From the NCBI RefSeq assembly GCF_947648125.1, contig NZ_CANSMR010000011.1, positions 124,001-188,000 of the forward strand: a stretch of DNA of 64,000 nucleotides, written 5' to 3'. The translations under genes were made by a program, and so were the position numbers. Within the stretch, counting starts at the first letter, position 1. The number at the start of each line of letters is the position of its first letter. Below the pieces are notes generated by a model. It made no database searches. It was not told where the DNA came from and worked only from the letters and a program-made list of their open reading frames with translations. Of this stretch, positions 1 to 8,090 are shown piece after piece. The DNA is from an uncultured Bradyrhizobium sp. Its GTDB lineage: Bacteria > Pseudomonadota > Alphaproteobacteria > Rhizobiales > Xanthobacteraceae.

Positions 1-153
1 GCGCCGCGGATTGCGCGGGTTGGCCTTGAGGAATTCGATCGGCACCTTGCGCTGCGTGCGCGGCCGCTCGACATGCGCGGCCGCCTCGCCGCCGACATCT
101 CCGATCAGGCTTGCCAGCCCGCGCCCCAGTCGCGAACGCGCTTCATCGGCCAT
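1..153 (-). CDS. parB: ParB chromosome-partitioning protein, N-terminal fragment
   Basis: Only the first 51 codons are inside the window; the gene continues past the left edge. ParB is the CTP-dependent clamp that loads at parS and, with ParA, segregates the origin region. The visible start reads MADEARSRLGRGLASLIGD and then reaches a PIEFLKANPRNPRR segment, the usual ParB opening (a Lys/Arg-rich RLGRGL box, then the N-P-x-N-P-R entry to the ParB/Srx domain). The ATG at 151-153 follows a GGGAG ribosome-binding site. It lies 141 bp downstream of parA in the same direction, as expected for a parAB operon, and parS-like palindromes occur 1.6-4 kb away. Confidence 0.93.
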   Translation of the reverse strand, partial: MADEARSRLGRGLASLIGDVGGEAAAHVERPRTQRKVPIEFLKANPRNPRR

Positions 154-1178: not shown

Positions 1179-1844
1179 CTAGCGCCGCTCGATTGACCCG
1201 AGTTCGACGATCCAGCCCTGTCCGCCGGTCCGGCTGGCGTGTAGCTTTGGCTCAATATTCCAATATTTAGTGGCCTCGGTCAATTCGGCCTCTACATCTT
1301 GACCCTTCAAAAACAGCGCCTTGGCGCCTTTTTTGACCCACGGCTCCGCGAAGCCGATGAGTTGATGTAACGGAGCCAGCGCCCGCGCGGTGACGCAATC
1401 GATGGGGCCCGCGATTCTATCCACAGTATCCCCGATATCAGCCAGGTGCACAGTCCCCGGCGACGCCGTGACCCGTATCGCCTCGCGCAAGAATGCAGCC
1501 TTCTTGGCGATTCGCTCAACCAGATGGATCCGTGCGCCGGATGTCTCGGCCAACGCACAGGCCAGCACGACACCGGGAAAGCCACCGCCGCTGCCGAGAT
1601 CGACCCAGGATTTTGCTGAGGGTGCGAGGCTCAGAAGCTGCAGCGAATCGGACACATGCCGGGTCCAGAGATTCGGAAGCGTGGAGGGCGCGACGAGATT
1701 GGTCTTGGCCTGCCACTCCAGCAGAAGTGCGATGTAGCGATCGAGCCGCGCCTCCGTTTCACGTGAAACAGGCGTGAGTGCGAGCGCCGCGGCCTTGTCC
1801 TTGGCGGAGACGCTGAGTTCGGCAGATTGCGGGGCTGGAGCCAT
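1179..1844 (-). CDS. rsmG: RsmG 16S rRNA (guanine-N7)-methyltransferase
   Basis: SAM-dependent methyltransferase (formerly GidB) that modifies G527 of 16S rRNA. The 221-residue protein has the glycine-rich SAM motif WVDLGSGGGFPG near residues 80-92 and the family's Rossmann core. It sits between mnmG and parA on the same strand. A parS-like palindrome (1755-1770) lies inside its 5' coding part, so the coding sequence carries a segregation signal as well. Loss of RsmG typically gives low-level streptomycin resistance in bacteria (family knowledge). Confidence 0.95.
   Translation of the reverse strand: MAPAPQSAELSVSAKDKAAALALTPVSRETEARLDRYIALLLEWQAKTNLVAPSTLPNLWTRHVSDSLQLLSLAPSAKSWVDLGSGGGFPGVVLACALAETSGARIHLVERIAKKAAFLREAIRVTASPGTVHLADIGDTVDRIAGPIDCVTARALAPLHQLIGFAEPWVKKGAKALFLKGQDVEAELTEATKYWNIEPKLHASRTGGQGWIVELGSIERR
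1755..1770. promoter_or_regulatory. parS: parS site 1 (inside rsmG)
   Basis: The word CGTTTCACGTGAAACA matches the bacterial parS consensus TGTTTCACGTGAAACA at 15 of 16 positions and keeps the perfect GTTTCACGTGAAAC core. It lies in the N-terminal coding region of rsmG, about 1.6 kb from the parB start. Confidence 0.9.
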
Positions 1845-1946
1845 TTTGGGAGCAGGGCCGTTTGTTTGACGTGAAAGCCGGTGGTGAGGCCGACGCGCGG
1901 CGCGTTGGTCGATTCGACTTCACAAAGGATAGGCGCTCAATCCCCG

Positions 1947-1962
1947 TGTTTCACGTGAAACG
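1947..1962. promoter_or_regulatory. parS: parS site 2 (rsmG-mnmG junction)
   Basis: TGTTTCACGTGAAACG, one mismatch at the last base from the parS consensus. It lies immediately beyond the mnmG stop codon, in the gap before rsmG. Confidence 0.9.
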
Positions 1963-3846
1963 TCAGGCGGTGGCCTTGGCCGATTTCCGTCGCGCCTCGC
2001 GCCGTAGGTACGCCGCCAGGATACCCAGCGCCGCCGGCGTCATGCCGTCGATCCGGCCCGCCTGCCCGACCGTCCGCGGCTGCGCCTTCTGCAGCTTGGC
2101 GCGCGCTTCGTTCGACAGACCGGGTACGTCGGCGTAGTCGACATCGGCCAGGACCAGGCCCTCGTCGCGCCGGAACGCGTCAACGTCGGCGGTCTGGCGC
2201 TTCAGATAGACATCGTATTTGGCATCGATCTCGAGATGCACCGCGATCGCAGGGTCAATGGCCGACAGCTCCGGCCAGATCGCCTGGACCGCGGGCCATT
2301 CGATCTCCGGATAGGCCAGCAGTTCGAAGGCGGATCGGCGATGACCATCGCGATTGAGTGCCAGCCCATGCTTGGCGGCCTCATTCGGCGTGATCAGGAG
2401 CGACTTCGCCAAGGTTTTGGCTGCGTCCAGCGCCGCCATCTTCCCCCGGTGACGGTCCGCTCGTGCCGTACCGACGCAGCCGAGCGCGATACCCTTGTCG
2501 GTCAGCCGCTGGTCGGCATTGTCGGCCCGCAGCGTCAGCCGGTACTCGGCCCGCGAGGTGAACATCCGATAGGGTTCGGTGATCCCGCGGGTCACGAGAT
2601 CGTCGATCATCACACCGAGATAGCCGTCGGCGCGGTCGAACACGATCGGGTCGGTCCCGCTGGCGGCCAGCGCGGCATTGAGCCCGGCAACGATGCCCTG
2701 CCCCGCCGCCTCCTCGTAGCCCGTGGTGCCGTTGATCTGGCCGGCCAGGAAAAGTCCGCGCAGACGCTTTGTCTGCAGGGTCGGATCGAGTTCACGGGGA
2801 TCGACGTGGTCGTATTCGATCGCATAGCCGGGCCGGACCATCTTCACCCGCTCAAGCCCGGGGATGCTGGCGAGGATCGCGAGCTGGACCTCCTCCGGCA
2901 GCGATGTCGAGATGCCGTTGGGATAGACCGTGCTGTCGTCGAGCCCTTCCGGCTCCAGGAAGATCTGGTGGCCGTCGCGGTCGCCAAAGCGGACGATCTT
3001 GTCTTCGATCGAGGGGCAATAGCGGGGTCCAGAGCTCTTGATCTGGCCGGAATACATCGGCGAGCGATGCACATTGGCCCGGATCACCTCATGAGTCGTT
3101 GGCGTGGTGCGGGTGATGCCGCACTGGATCTGCGGGGTCGTAATCCGGTCCGTCATGACCGAAAACGGCTCCGGAGGCTCGTCTCCGGGCTGCATTTCGA
3201 CCGCGGACCAGTCGATCGTGGTGCCGTCGAGACGCGGAGGCGTCCCGGTCTTGAGCCGGCCGAGCACAAAACCTGCCCGTTCGAACGAGGCAGACAGACC
3301 CATGGCCGGCGCCTCGCCGACCCTGCCTGCCGGCCAGTTCTTCTCGCCAAGATGAATCAGACCACGCAGGAAGGTGCCGGTGGTGATGACGACCGCACCC
3401 GCTGAAAGCTGGCGGCCATCGCCCAAGCGAATGCCGGTCACACGCCCATCAACGACAATCAACTCATCCGCTTCGCCCTCGATGACGCTGAGGTTCGCAG
3501 TCTCTGTGATCGCCGCCTGCATCGCGGCCGCATAGAGCTTGCGGTCGGCCTGGGCCCGGGGCCCGCGGACCGCCGGACCCTTCCGGCGATTGAGCATGCG
3601 AAACTGGATGCCGCCGGCGTCGGCAACCCGGCCCATCAGACCGTCCAGCGCGTCGACTTCGCGGACCAGATGGCCCTTGCCGAGGCCGCCGATCGCGGGA
3701 TTACAGGACATCGCGCCGATGGTCGCGAAACGATGGGTCACTAGGGCTGTCTTCGCGCCCATCCGGGCAGCCGCACTCGCGGCCTCGCATCCGGCATGGC
3801 CGCCGCCGATGACGATGACGTCGAATGAGTCTGCCCTGATAGTCAT
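1963..3846 (-). CDS. mnmG: MnmG, FAD-dependent tRNA-U34 5-carboxymethylaminomethyl modification subunit
   Basis: Forms the MnmE-MnmG complex that installs the cmnm5 group on U34 of certain tRNAs. It has 627 residues, the usual length. An N-terminal FAD-binding dinucleotide motif [10 protein letters not shown] is at about residues 13-22, and the family signature [15 protein letters not shown] lies in the central part. MnmE is encoded just upstream on the same strand with a parS-bearing spacer between. The N-terminus [16 protein letters not shown] supports the start at 3846. Confidence 0.97.
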
Positions 3847-3965
3847 GGCGGGACTTCTATCGTGGAGTGATGAAAGCCGGAAGAACGAAGTTAGGACGCT
3901 GGTTCGAGAACCGATTCAGTCGAGATATGGATTGCGTCGCTTCGCTCGCAATGACGGGGCGGAGT

Positions 3966-3981
3966 TGTTTCACGTGAAACA
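3966..3981. promoter_or_regulatory. parS: parS site 3 (mnmE-mnmG spacer)
   Basis: TGTTTCACGTGAAACA, a perfect 16-bp match to the parS consensus, in the non-coding gap between mnmE and mnmG. Confidence 0.95.
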
Positions 3982-4002
3982 GTCCGGTCGGGCCGCAGTA
4001 AT

Positions 4003-4018
4003 TGTTTCACGTGAAACG
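4003..4018. promoter_or_regulatory. parS: parS site 4 (mnmE-mnmG spacer)
   Basis: TGTTTCACGTGAAACG, a 15/16 match, starting 37 bp after the start of site 3. Confidence 0.92.
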
Positions 4019-4049
4019 GGAGGCGGCTTCCTTAACCAGATCGAAACCA

Positions 4050-4065
4050 TGTTTCACGTGAAACA
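4050..4065. promoter_or_regulatory. parS: parS site 5 (mnmE-mnmG spacer)
   Basis: TGTTTCACGTGAAACA, a perfect match, starting 47 bp after the start of site 4 and ending 11 bp before the mnmE stop codon. Three sites in 100 bp make this spacer the densest part of the cluster. Confidence 0.95.
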
Positions 4066-4076
4066 GACGGGGCCCG

Positions 4077-5402
4077 CTACTTCCCGACGCAGAACTCGCG
4101 GAAGATGACGTCCAAGATGTCTTCGATATCGACCCGGCCGAGCAAACGGCCGAGTGAGGTGGTCGCCCTGCGAAGTTCCTCGGCGGCAAGTTCCTCGCCC
4201 TGCCCGACCACGTCGATGCTGCGCCGAAGAGATTCGACGGTCTCCTCAAGCAACCCGCGCTGCCGTGTCCGGCTGATCAGACCGCCCTCGCTGGTCGCGA
4301 AATAGTCGTGAGCGAAACCGACCAGCGCGGCAATCAACTCGGAGAGGCCGTCACCGCGGGCCGCCGAGATCCTGAATTCGGGGTGGCTGCCTCCCTCGCC
4401 CGGCGGGGTCCTCACCAGGTCGATCTTGTTCCGGACCAGCCAGGTTGGCGTCGAGCCAGCATGTCCCACCTTGGCGCCGCCGCTGTCGGCCAGCCACAGC
4501 ACGAGATCGGCTTCAGCCGCGCGGGCACGGGCACGGCGGACCCCCTCCTGCTCCACCGGGTCGTCGGTCTCGCGGATTCCGGCGGTGTCGATGACCGTGA
4601 CGGGATAGCCGTCGAGGTCGAGCTGCACTTCGATCACGTCGCGCGTGGTGCCCGCATGCGGCGAGACGATCGCGACCTCGCGCCTGGCAAGCTGATTGAT
4701 CAGGGTCGATTTGCCGACATTCGGTGGACCCGCGATCGCGACCACCAAGCCATCGCGCAGACGTTCGCTTTGCCCCTGCCCCGCAAGCATTTGCTTGATC
4801 TCGTCATGCAGCGCCCGAATCCGCTCGAGCGCCGGCGCGATCAACTCCGCCGGCACATCGCCCTCATCGGAGAAATCGATGCCGGCCTCGATCAGCGCTG
4901 ACGCTGCGATGATTCGCTCGCGCCAGTCGCGTGCGCGATCGCCGAGCAACCCCTTGAGCTGTCGCAGCGCCTGGCGCCGTTGGCGATCGGTGTCGGCGTG
5001 GATCAGATCGTCGAGGCCTTCGGCTTCGGTCAGGTCGAGCTTGCCGTTCTCGAATGCCCGCCGGGTGAACTCACCGGGCTCGGCCGGCCGCACATTCTCG
5101 AACGCCGCGATGGCATCGAACATCGCCGACAACACCGCGCGTCCGCCATGGACATGAAATTCGGCCACGTCCTCGCCGGTTGCGCTGGCCGGGCCCGGGA
5201 ACCACAACACGACCGCATCATCGATCGGTTGGTGGTTCGAATCGTGGAGCAGCGCGCGGGTCGCCATTCGCGGCACCGGGATCTTGCCCGTCAGTCCAGC
5301 AATGACCGACTCGGCCATTGGGCCGGACAGCCTGACGATGGCGATCGCGCTCGGCGGCCGCCCGGAGGATAATGCGAATATGGTCTGGTCGCGCGGATGC
5401 AT
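4077..5402 (-). CDS. mnmE: MnmE (TrmE), tRNA-modification GTPase
   Basis: K+-activated GTPase partner of MnmG. The 441-residue protein has an N-terminal folate-binding TrmE domain, a G domain inserted in a helical domain, and the terminal CVGK tetrapeptide whose Cys (about residue 438) is typical. G1 is [10 protein letters not shown]3 is DTAG and G4 is NKID. It is the first gene of the mnmE-mnmG-rsmG-parA-parB series. The start ATG at 5400-5402 gives [14 protein letters not shown], the family's standard opening. Confidence 0.97.
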
Positions 5403-7219: not shown

Positions 7220-7645
7220 CTAGAACGGCTTCACGACCACCATGATCACGATCAGGATCATCAGAAGCGTCGGCACCTCGTTGATAATGCGATAGAATTT
7301 CTGAGTGCGCTGATTCCGGTCGGCGGCGAAATCCTTTACGCAGCGGGACAAAAAGCCGTGGATACCCGACATGATGAGCACCAGCGTAAATTTGACGTGA
7401 AACCAGCCCGATAGGTACCAGTGTCCGGCCCAGACCAGATAAAGCCCGGCAAGCCAGGTCACGATCATCGCGGGGTTGATAATCGCCTTCAAAAGCCGCC
7501 GCTCCATGACCTTGAAGGTCTCGGACTGCTTCGAGCCGATCTCGGTCTCGCAATGATAGACGAACAGCCGCGGCAGATAGAGCATGCCCGCCATCCAGGA
7601 AATCACGGCAACGATGTGCAGGGCCTTGATCCAGTCATACAACAT
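7220..7645 (-). CDS. hemJ: HemJ protoporphyrinogen oxidase
   Basis: Small (141 aa) integral membrane protein of the UPF0093/HemJ family, which oxidises protoporphyrinogen IX to protoporphyrin IX in bacteria lacking HemG/HemY. About four membrane helices are visible. The conserved histidine in KALHIVAVISWMAG (about residue 10) and the PRLFVYH segment are present. It sits next to rho, as in many Rhizobiales, and faces the candidate origin region. Confidence 0.93.
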   Translation of the reverse strand: MLYDWIKALHIVAVISWMAGMLYLPRLFVYHCETEIGSKQSETFKVMERRLLKAIINPAMIVTWLAGLYLVWAGHWYLSGWFHVKFTLVLIMSGIHGFLSRCVKDFAADRNQRTQKFYRIINEVPTLLMILIVIMVVVKPF

Positions 7646-8090
7646 CGCGGTGATGCCTTTCAGGGAACAGCTCGGGCGGTCTCAGCGTTGCGAGCCGACT
7701 CTGCTTGCGAGGGACCGATACATATCCGCTCACACGGCTCTCCTAAACTTAATTAAGTTTAGAATCTAAGGTTTGAGTCTTAGTGGCGGTGAATTTGACT
7801 CATGCAATGCGATCCAGTCGTTCTTGCGGGCTTGTTCACATCCCTCAACATTTCGGCCTGCGAGTGCCGATATCCGGAATCTGTCGTTCAACTCAATCGG
7901 TTGCGGACCTCTGTGGCCAGCTTATGAAGAGACAAATCCACACCGGTTCACTATCATCCGTCCCATGACGTCGACTTATCCTTTTCGGCGGTGCTGTGAA
8001 GAAGGGGACGAGATATACAGGGGCCTGGCGGCGGACCCGGATTCTTCTCCTCGACCTCCACAGGGATTCACAGGATAGACAGGGGCTCCG
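7646..8090. other. oriC: Candidate chromosomal replication origin region (hemJ-ppsR gap)
   Basis: A 445-bp gap without a credible gene. It contains a 20-bp AT-rich perfect palindrome (7743-7762) and several words close to the DnaA box TTATCCACA: TTGTTCACA at 7832-7840, AAATCCACA at 7934-7942, and clustered CCACAGG/TTCACAGG words at about 8057-8073. In several alphaproteobacteria the origin lies between a heme-synthesis gene (hemE) and the DUF299 gene, here ppsR, and parAB-parS are nearby. The boxes are degenerate, and hemJ rather than hemE is the heme neighbour, so this is an inference from context. Confidence 0.5.
7743..7762. repeat. 20-bp perfect AT-rich palindrome
   Basis: CTAAACTTAATTAAGTTTAG equals its own reverse complement. 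It has only 4 G/C bases in a genome region of more than 60% GC, and sits about 100 bp upstream of hemJ in the divergent hemJ/ppsR gap. It could be a repressor operator or an origin-associated protein site. Confidence 0.85.

Follow-up and report, generated by a model that had tools for sequence, protein, structure and literature searches.

Why should a bacterial chromosome carry five copies of one palindrome within 2.3 kb, and why should one of them be written inside the gene of a conserved, ribosome-modifying enzyme? This question is raised by a 64,000-nucleotide stretch of DNA from an uncultured Bradyrhizobium sp. (contig NZ_CANSMR010000011.1, positions 124,001 to 188,000; hereafter the window), in which five matches to parS, the site of the partition protein ParB, lie in and around the genes rsmG and mnmG. 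Very probably, these are the DNA sites by which the chromosome of this Bradyrhizobium-like bacterium is gripped and segregated. Taken together, our comparisons make it highly likely that the sites form the centromere of a ParABS system, that two of their positions are old anchors, and that the copy in rsmG has been kept mainly by selection acting on the DNA. The cluster in itself is ordinary, a ParABS loading cluster of the standard kind known from Caulobacter. What makes it interesting is the conserved in-gene site together with what appears to be a dialect of ParB and parS, both of which emerge from sequence comparison alone. The matches are:

1755 to 1770: parS copy inside rsmG, with one outer mismatch in 16, reading V-S-R-E-T in RsmG
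1863 to 1878: degenerate parS-like word in the rsmG-mnmG gap, with 3 of 16 positions mismatched, possibly a decayed copy
1947 to 1962: parS copy abutting the mnmG stop codon, with one outer mismatch in 16
3966 to 3981: parS copy in the mnmG-mnmE spacer, a perfect 16-mer
4003 to 4018: parS copy in the same spacer, with one outer mismatch in 16
4050 to 4065: parS copy in the same spacer, a perfect 16-mer

The 14-mer core GTTTCACGTGAAAC is intact in all five copies, starting at 1756, 1948, 3967, 4004 and 4051. Compared with the 16-mer consensus TGTTTCACGTGAAACA, the copies at 3966 and 4050 are perfect and those at 1755, 1947 and 4003 differ at one outer base. The sequence-only reading of this DNA had given the same coordinates, the same tally of two perfect and three single-mismatch copies with the core kept, and the same placement in rsmG, at the mnmG stop and in the mnmG-mnmE spacer, all of which are borne out by sequence matching and by the gene map. 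It had named a random scatter of the word across the genome as a ground for refutation, and a whole-genome scan excluded this, as the five exact copies of GTTTCACGTGAAAC in the 8,572,917-base draft genome (71 contigs) all fall in one 2.3-kb stretch. When the window was scanned at up to three mismatches, six matches were found, against a mean of 0.07 in 100 dinucleotide shuffles, the sixth being the word at 1863-1878, with three. Words with two mismatches occur at five further places in the genome, as against nine for a reversed control pattern, and are thus at chance level; two of the five places, at 1864 and 7390 of the window, are near the cluster. For this reason, we did not count the parS-like words at 1863 and 7390 as sites. 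The latter (7390-7403) falls within hemJ, in a WFHVK stretch that we take to be conserved in HemJ, and is probably a coincidence. Four other genomes of the genus (G219, G286, G314 and G334) hold 4, 5, 4 and 4 exact sites, respectively, in one cluster each.

What, then, would read these sites? The surrounding genes, named by NCBIfam, run on the minus strand in the order mnmE, mnmG, rsmG, parA, parB:

1 to 153, minus strand: 5′ part of parB (TIGR00180, over cut-off), the remainder lying left of the window on the same contig (L160:5267-6154)
295 to 1146, minus strand: parA, Soj-type ATPase, directly after rsmG (ParA-family matches under the equivalog cut-offs)
1179 to 1844, minus strand: rsmG (gidB), 16S rRNA G527 methyltransferase and host of a parS copy (TIGR00138, over cut-off)
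1963 to 3846, minus strand: mnmG (gidA) (TIGR00136, over cut-off)
4077 to 5402, minus strand: mnmE (NF003661, over cut-off)

The adjacency of parA and parB is as expected of a chromosomal ParABS system, with ParA assigned by family resemblance below equivalog cut-offs, and the closest named RsmG relatives are from Bradyrhizobium (ten loci, 81-86% identity). The ParB encoded at L160:5267-6154 aligns over about 240 residues with the Caulobacter ParB entries 6t1f and 7bm8 (E = 1.6e-65), and its specificity residues, read by alignment, are R173, M179, K184 and G201. In PMC7383237, R173 and G201 are described as absolutely conserved among ParB orthologs, and residues 179 and 184 as variable. In our alphaproteobacterial set of 138 ParB rows, which counts the protein of the window twice, R173 is present in 136 (the exceptions being L033 and L043), and residue 201 is glycine in 128, alanine in two, serine in one and a gap in seven. 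With R173 and G201, this ParB therefore matches the sites in the window. An identity as Noc, with NBS sites, was rejected: among the residues Q173, K179, K184 and R201 only K184 agrees, and the NCBIfam nucleoid_noc profile scores 205.9 bits, below its cut-off of 315.

The five sites lie 0.6-2.9 kb from the start of parA (1146), not 2-4 kb from parAB as the sequence-only reading had it. As the only exact sites of the genome, placed beside parA and a parS-type ParB, they are by far best read as a centromere and predicted ParB loading zone, which is what the sequence-only reading had proposed. That this zone would be strong because it is dense is unproven, as a single parS sufficed in Pseudomonas aeruginosa according to PMC4368675. 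If the mechanism known from Caulobacter and others is carried over by homology, ParB dimers would load at parS, close as CTP clamps and slide over the neighbouring few kilobases; ParA would then move the ParB complex, and the origin region would segregate first. The cores are perfect palindromes and three lie in an intergenic spacer, which could also suggest binding sites of some other regulator or transcription terminators. Nevertheless, the sites match the exact parS consensus, form a single cluster at parAB and include a copy inside a gene, and no T-run follows the palindromes by eye, although no promoter or terminator scan was run. Furthermore, the word is present in 159 of 192 genomes of the class, with a reversed control at zero in all 192, and a variant of the site is associated with ParB residue 201 (see below). 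Readings as promoters, terminators or sites of another regulator were dropped in view of the single parAB cluster, the exact core and the wide presence in the class, and they seem scarcely credible.

If the cluster is a centromere, why does part of it stand inside rsmG? The sequence-only reading had treated this copy as a curiosity, although it is in fact the most widely common site of the cluster. It was followed in an RsmG sample drawn evenly over the class Alphaproteobacteria: 192 genomes were searched, 178 had RsmG, and the best 150 were kept (own locus included), leaving out the 28 lowest-scoring genomes. Flanks extended up to about 7 kb in 120 loci where contigs allowed (18 kb for our own locus) and up to 1.5 kb in the other 30; frames were taken from stop to stop, and some sites counted in rsmG may precede the true start codon. 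The rsmG frame contains an exact parS in 106 of these 150 loci, and another 13 have a word with one mismatch. For the VSRET codons that hold the site in the window, the count depends on the definition, being 91 or 93 for exact sites and 100, 103 or 104 with variants. At this place parS is the modal 14-mer (93 of 148 ungapped rows). Elsewhere in rsmG, too, parS outranks all other 14-mers, with 11 of 150 loci carrying it at a second place; the most frequent non-parS 14-mer of the gene is found in just 9 of the 150 loci. Within the family of the window, 25 of 30 loci (own included) have an rsmG-frame site at up to one mismatch, and in ten named Bradyrhizobium loci the rsmG site has one mismatch in two and is absent in one (L267). 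In the 99 loci with at least 14 kb of sequence, the rsmG frames (72 kb in total) contain 80 exact sites, the mnmG frames (172 kb) 26, the mnmE frames (116 kb) 3 and the parA frames (86 kb) none, with 70 lying elsewhere.

Of the three reading frames of the parS core, one has a TGA, and the other two give VSRET or a stretch with FHVK; RsmG uses the VSRET frame. It could thus be argued that the RsmG protein needs VSRET and that the match to parS is a by-product, the more so as the word stands at a fixed 36 residues before a conserved RH motif in 100 of the 150 loci, counting one-mismatch words. The codons argue otherwise. VSRET is encoded by the exact parS codons in 113 of 116 peptides, where 0.69 would be expected from the codon usage of the genes themselves, so that the synonymous positions are nearly fixed. 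In addition, the third base of the threonine codon is A in 94 of the 113, as the 16-mer wants, against a background of 19.6%. By comparison, another conserved peptide of RsmG, INLV, shows 40 different codings among 75 occurrences. Moreover, 54 of the 150 RsmGs have different residues at that place, sites occur at other rsmG codons, in the outgroup within the last quarter of the frame, and the site tracks parA: at up to one mismatch, it is present in 113 of the 137 loci with parA next after rsmG, compared with 3 of the 10 with another arrangement (p = 0.0008, ignoring relatedness; three loci without room were set aside). On the grounds of codon usage, modal 14-mers and position, protein-level selection of VSRET was rejected as the main cause, and we consider it very unlikely. 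Instead, the codon bias and the densities per frame point to selection acting on the DNA, with rsmG as the preferred host of the site.

Among named loci, the best 80 of 576 candidates, which lean to Hyphomicrobiales, the usual place 36 residues before RH is occupied in 65. Five others (Chelatococcus, Methylovirgula, two Methylocystaceae and an uncultured Rhizobiales) have a site 60 residues after RH, by position the second place; four (Sinorhizobium glycinis, Rhizobium rhizogenes, Rhizobium sp. Root1334 and a Rhizobiales isolate) have one nine residues before RH; one has a single-mismatch site 35 residues after RH; and two Magnetospirillum-type loci have an extra site 60 residues before it. 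Outside the Alphaproteobacteria, 11 of 70 loci have a site in the last quarter of the rsmG frame (7 exact, 4 with one mismatch) and 59 have none, in a set that was not random but made up of the 30 best-scoring loci and 40 chosen for family spread. On a FastTree phylogeny of MnmG (180 rows, 123 of them alphaproteobacterial, with many weak forks), the usual site occurs on almost every deep branch within the main clade of Alphaproteobacteria, with 18 changes at the fewest, and the second place requires at least four. Four alphaproteobacterial rows stand beside the outgroup, and the usual site is absent in those four.

Is the rsmG copy alone in its age? In 96 loci, mnmG lies directly upstream of rsmG with at least 3 kb of sequence there, and in 56 of these an exact site in rsmG is paired with one at the mnmG start (-350 to +60), at a median spacing of 2010 bp; the remainder comprises 20 with the rsmG site only, 9 with the mnmG start site only and 11 with neither. 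In the class sample of 192 genomes, exact sites most often number two; 8 genomes have at least five and 33 have none. The window therefore looks like an old two-site centromere, the usual pair, with added copies. In terms of mechanism, the two old anchor positions would be inside rsmG and at the start of mnmG, about 2 kb off, and the Bradyrhizobium group would have added further copies in the mnmG-mnmE spacer, whose 230 bp (3847-4076) house three sites, and at the mnmG stop, where some relatives have a site within 9 bp of the 1947 place. This raises the possibility that function rests on just one or two of the five sites and that the others are neutral duplicates, which would agree with the commonest number of two, the rarity of genomes with five or more, and a copy number upstream of mnmG that varies among close relatives (0 to 4 per locus in the 30 loci of the family). 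Nevertheless, the full 14-mer is kept in all five copies, and five genomes of the genus keep four or five. Furthermore, Caulobacter ParB spreads only about 2 kb per site according to PMC5815017, and clustering may therefore add load. On balance, we hold neutral duplication to be somewhat improbable. As for the extremes of copy number, the genomes G181, G004 and G172 carry 18, 13 and 13 exact parS sites, respectively, far over the commonest count of two. A looser type of cluster is seen in Labrenzia, Stappia and Pannonibacter (L276, L282, L284, L294 and L296), where an exact rsmG parS is accompanied by five or six one-mismatch sites upstream, extending to 3.8-4.7 kb before the rsmG frame.

If selection acts on the DNA, the sites of one genome might be expected to change together. 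L050 has its two sites at a spacing of 2.0 kb, each with the sequence GTTTCGCGCGAAAC, and the rsmG copy still encodes VSRET. Likewise, the same variant stands in the rsmG frame and again 2.0-2.4 kb off in L074 and L085 (GTTCCACGTGAAAC), in L146 (GTTCCACGTGGAAC, at a different place of the rsmG frame) and in L154 (GTTTCACATGAAAC). The two Ala201 proteins of the 138-row ParB set are those of L050 (genome G109) and L152 (genome G069), and both loci carry GTTTCGCGCGAAAC repeatedly. This word occurs in 11 of 387 genomes of the class and is multiple in three, with two copies in G109, nine in G395 and 100, as reported, in G069. ParB has Ala201 in all three genomes with at least two copies, including G395, which was not among the genomes examined earlier, and Gly201 in all eight single-copy genomes (both ParBs of G185 included); the residues of G395 and of the eight single-copy genomes were read by motif, not by alignment, and the ParB of G167 was unreadable by motif. 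The association of Ala201 with GTTTCGCGCGAAAC lends support to the proposed selection at the DNA level. In PMC7383237, residue 201 is described as facing base pair 6 of the site, which is the very pair changed in GTTTCGCGCGAAAC (A6-to-G). In the same source, G201R, R173Q and a permissive lysine lead to Noc sites. The present case is thus like the ParB/Noc switch in the residue and the base pair concerned and unlike it in that a natural G201A goes with A6-to-G in parS while R173 is kept. The pairing of Ala201 with G6 would be a natural counterpart of that laboratory switch, at a residue called absolutely conserved, and, if true, would make the coevolution of ParB and parS directly testable.

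The two genomes richest in GTTTCGCGCGAAAC are drafts, and their extreme counts need care. In G069 (L152/L373, L365 and L377), most copies in the stretches read are part of the longer word ATGTTTCGCGCGAAACAT. Eighteen copies lie on 3 of 19 sampled contigs, the rsmG-parAB contig included, and 3 of the 19 contigs show 0% GC; the rsmG frame of L152 holds no GTTTCGCGCGAAAC site. Candidate readings of these repeats are a greatly expanded centromere or a related repeat. In G395 (L347, L354, L357 and L388), 79 canonical and 9 GTTTCGCGCGAAAC sites are distributed across many contigs, some of them forming arrays that repeat every 37 bp. Its Ala201 ParB would have to serve both words, or else the words are not all parS. 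G111, of the same family as G395, has three canonical sites and Gly201.

Several observations weigh against this account of the rsmG site. At up to one mismatch, 28 of the 150 loci have no site in the rsmG frame (L050, with its GTTTCGCGCGAAAC, among them), and the position is therefore not indispensable. Nor do all genomes change their sites in step: in four loci (L093, L105, L109 and L153) a variant in rsmG is accompanied by a canonical site elsewhere, two different variants occur in L026, and the rsmG of L088 contains both canonical and variant sites. Loci that lack the usual site more often have an alternative one in rsmG (19 of 50, against 9 of 100 with it; 10 of 15 against 2 of 65 among named loci), but this link was not significant on independent tree pairs (5 pairs). 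The proposal that sites lost from the usual codons are gained at other places of rsmG is thus weakened: the contingency tables favour it, and the tree pairs fall short of significance. Selection on the DNA is nonetheless preferred because the codons are nearly fixed, the site stands at other codons in some lineages, and matching variants lie about 2 kb apart in several genomes: the rsmG copy would be retained mainly as a ParB site and not for the pentapeptide that it encodes. The fuller account is that parS has been in rsmG since near the base of the Alphaproteobacteria, fixes the VSRET codons, is often found at other codons where it is missing from the usual ones, and follows the specificity of ParB, including the dialect of GTTTCGCGCGAAAC and Ala201; as a whole, we judge this probable. 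If true, a segregation site constrains the codons of a conserved enzyme across a bacterial class, and part of the centromere is written into the gene of an enzyme that modifies the ribosome. The rsmG site would also be a ready test bed, as it can be recoded synonymously without altering RsmG.

How does this arrangement compare with known systems? The Spo0J-parS system of Bacillus subtilis has the same palindrome family and a ParB-type protein, and its parS sites also occur within coding sequence. A 2007 survey of chromosomal parS by Livny et al. reportedly found the sites to be origin-proximal across bacteria; it is not known to treat a conserved in-gene site. Origin proximity across bacteria is likewise cited in PMC5815017, which also provides the following comparisons. 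Unlike those of the window, the four strongest sites of B. subtilis, which belongs to another phylum, are about 5, 13 and 39 kb apart (PMC5815017). In Caulobacter crescentus, five strong parS sites fall in a 5-kb stretch at a distance of about 8 kb from the origin, and sit in essential or high-fitness-cost genes; in-gene parS is therefore already known (PMC5815017). Thus, the window resembles C. crescentus in its ParABS, its five clustered sites and the presence of sites inside genes, and differs in their placing, with three packed into one 230-bp spacer and a distance to the origin that comes from synteny only. A literature search returned nothing on VSRET, on parS in rsmG or on GTTTCGCGCGAAAC, although it covered subscription journals thinly and priority is uncertain.

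Finally, is the cluster near the origin of replication, as the sequence-only reading also proposed? Synteny suggests that it may be, by way of one interval:

7646 to 8090: hemJ-ppsR intergenic interval, candidate oriC by synteny only (54% GC)

An origin was sought in this interval by GC content, DnaA boxes and skew, and a decisive sign was absent: the strict DnaA box TTWTNCACA does not occur in the 64-kb window, and GC skew across the window is flat, with no clear switch. A GC content of 54% is compatible with an origin. The interval lies 3.6-6.3 kb from the parS sites, and a neighbourhood like that of hemJ and ppsR presumably flanks the origin in Caulobacter and Rickettsia.

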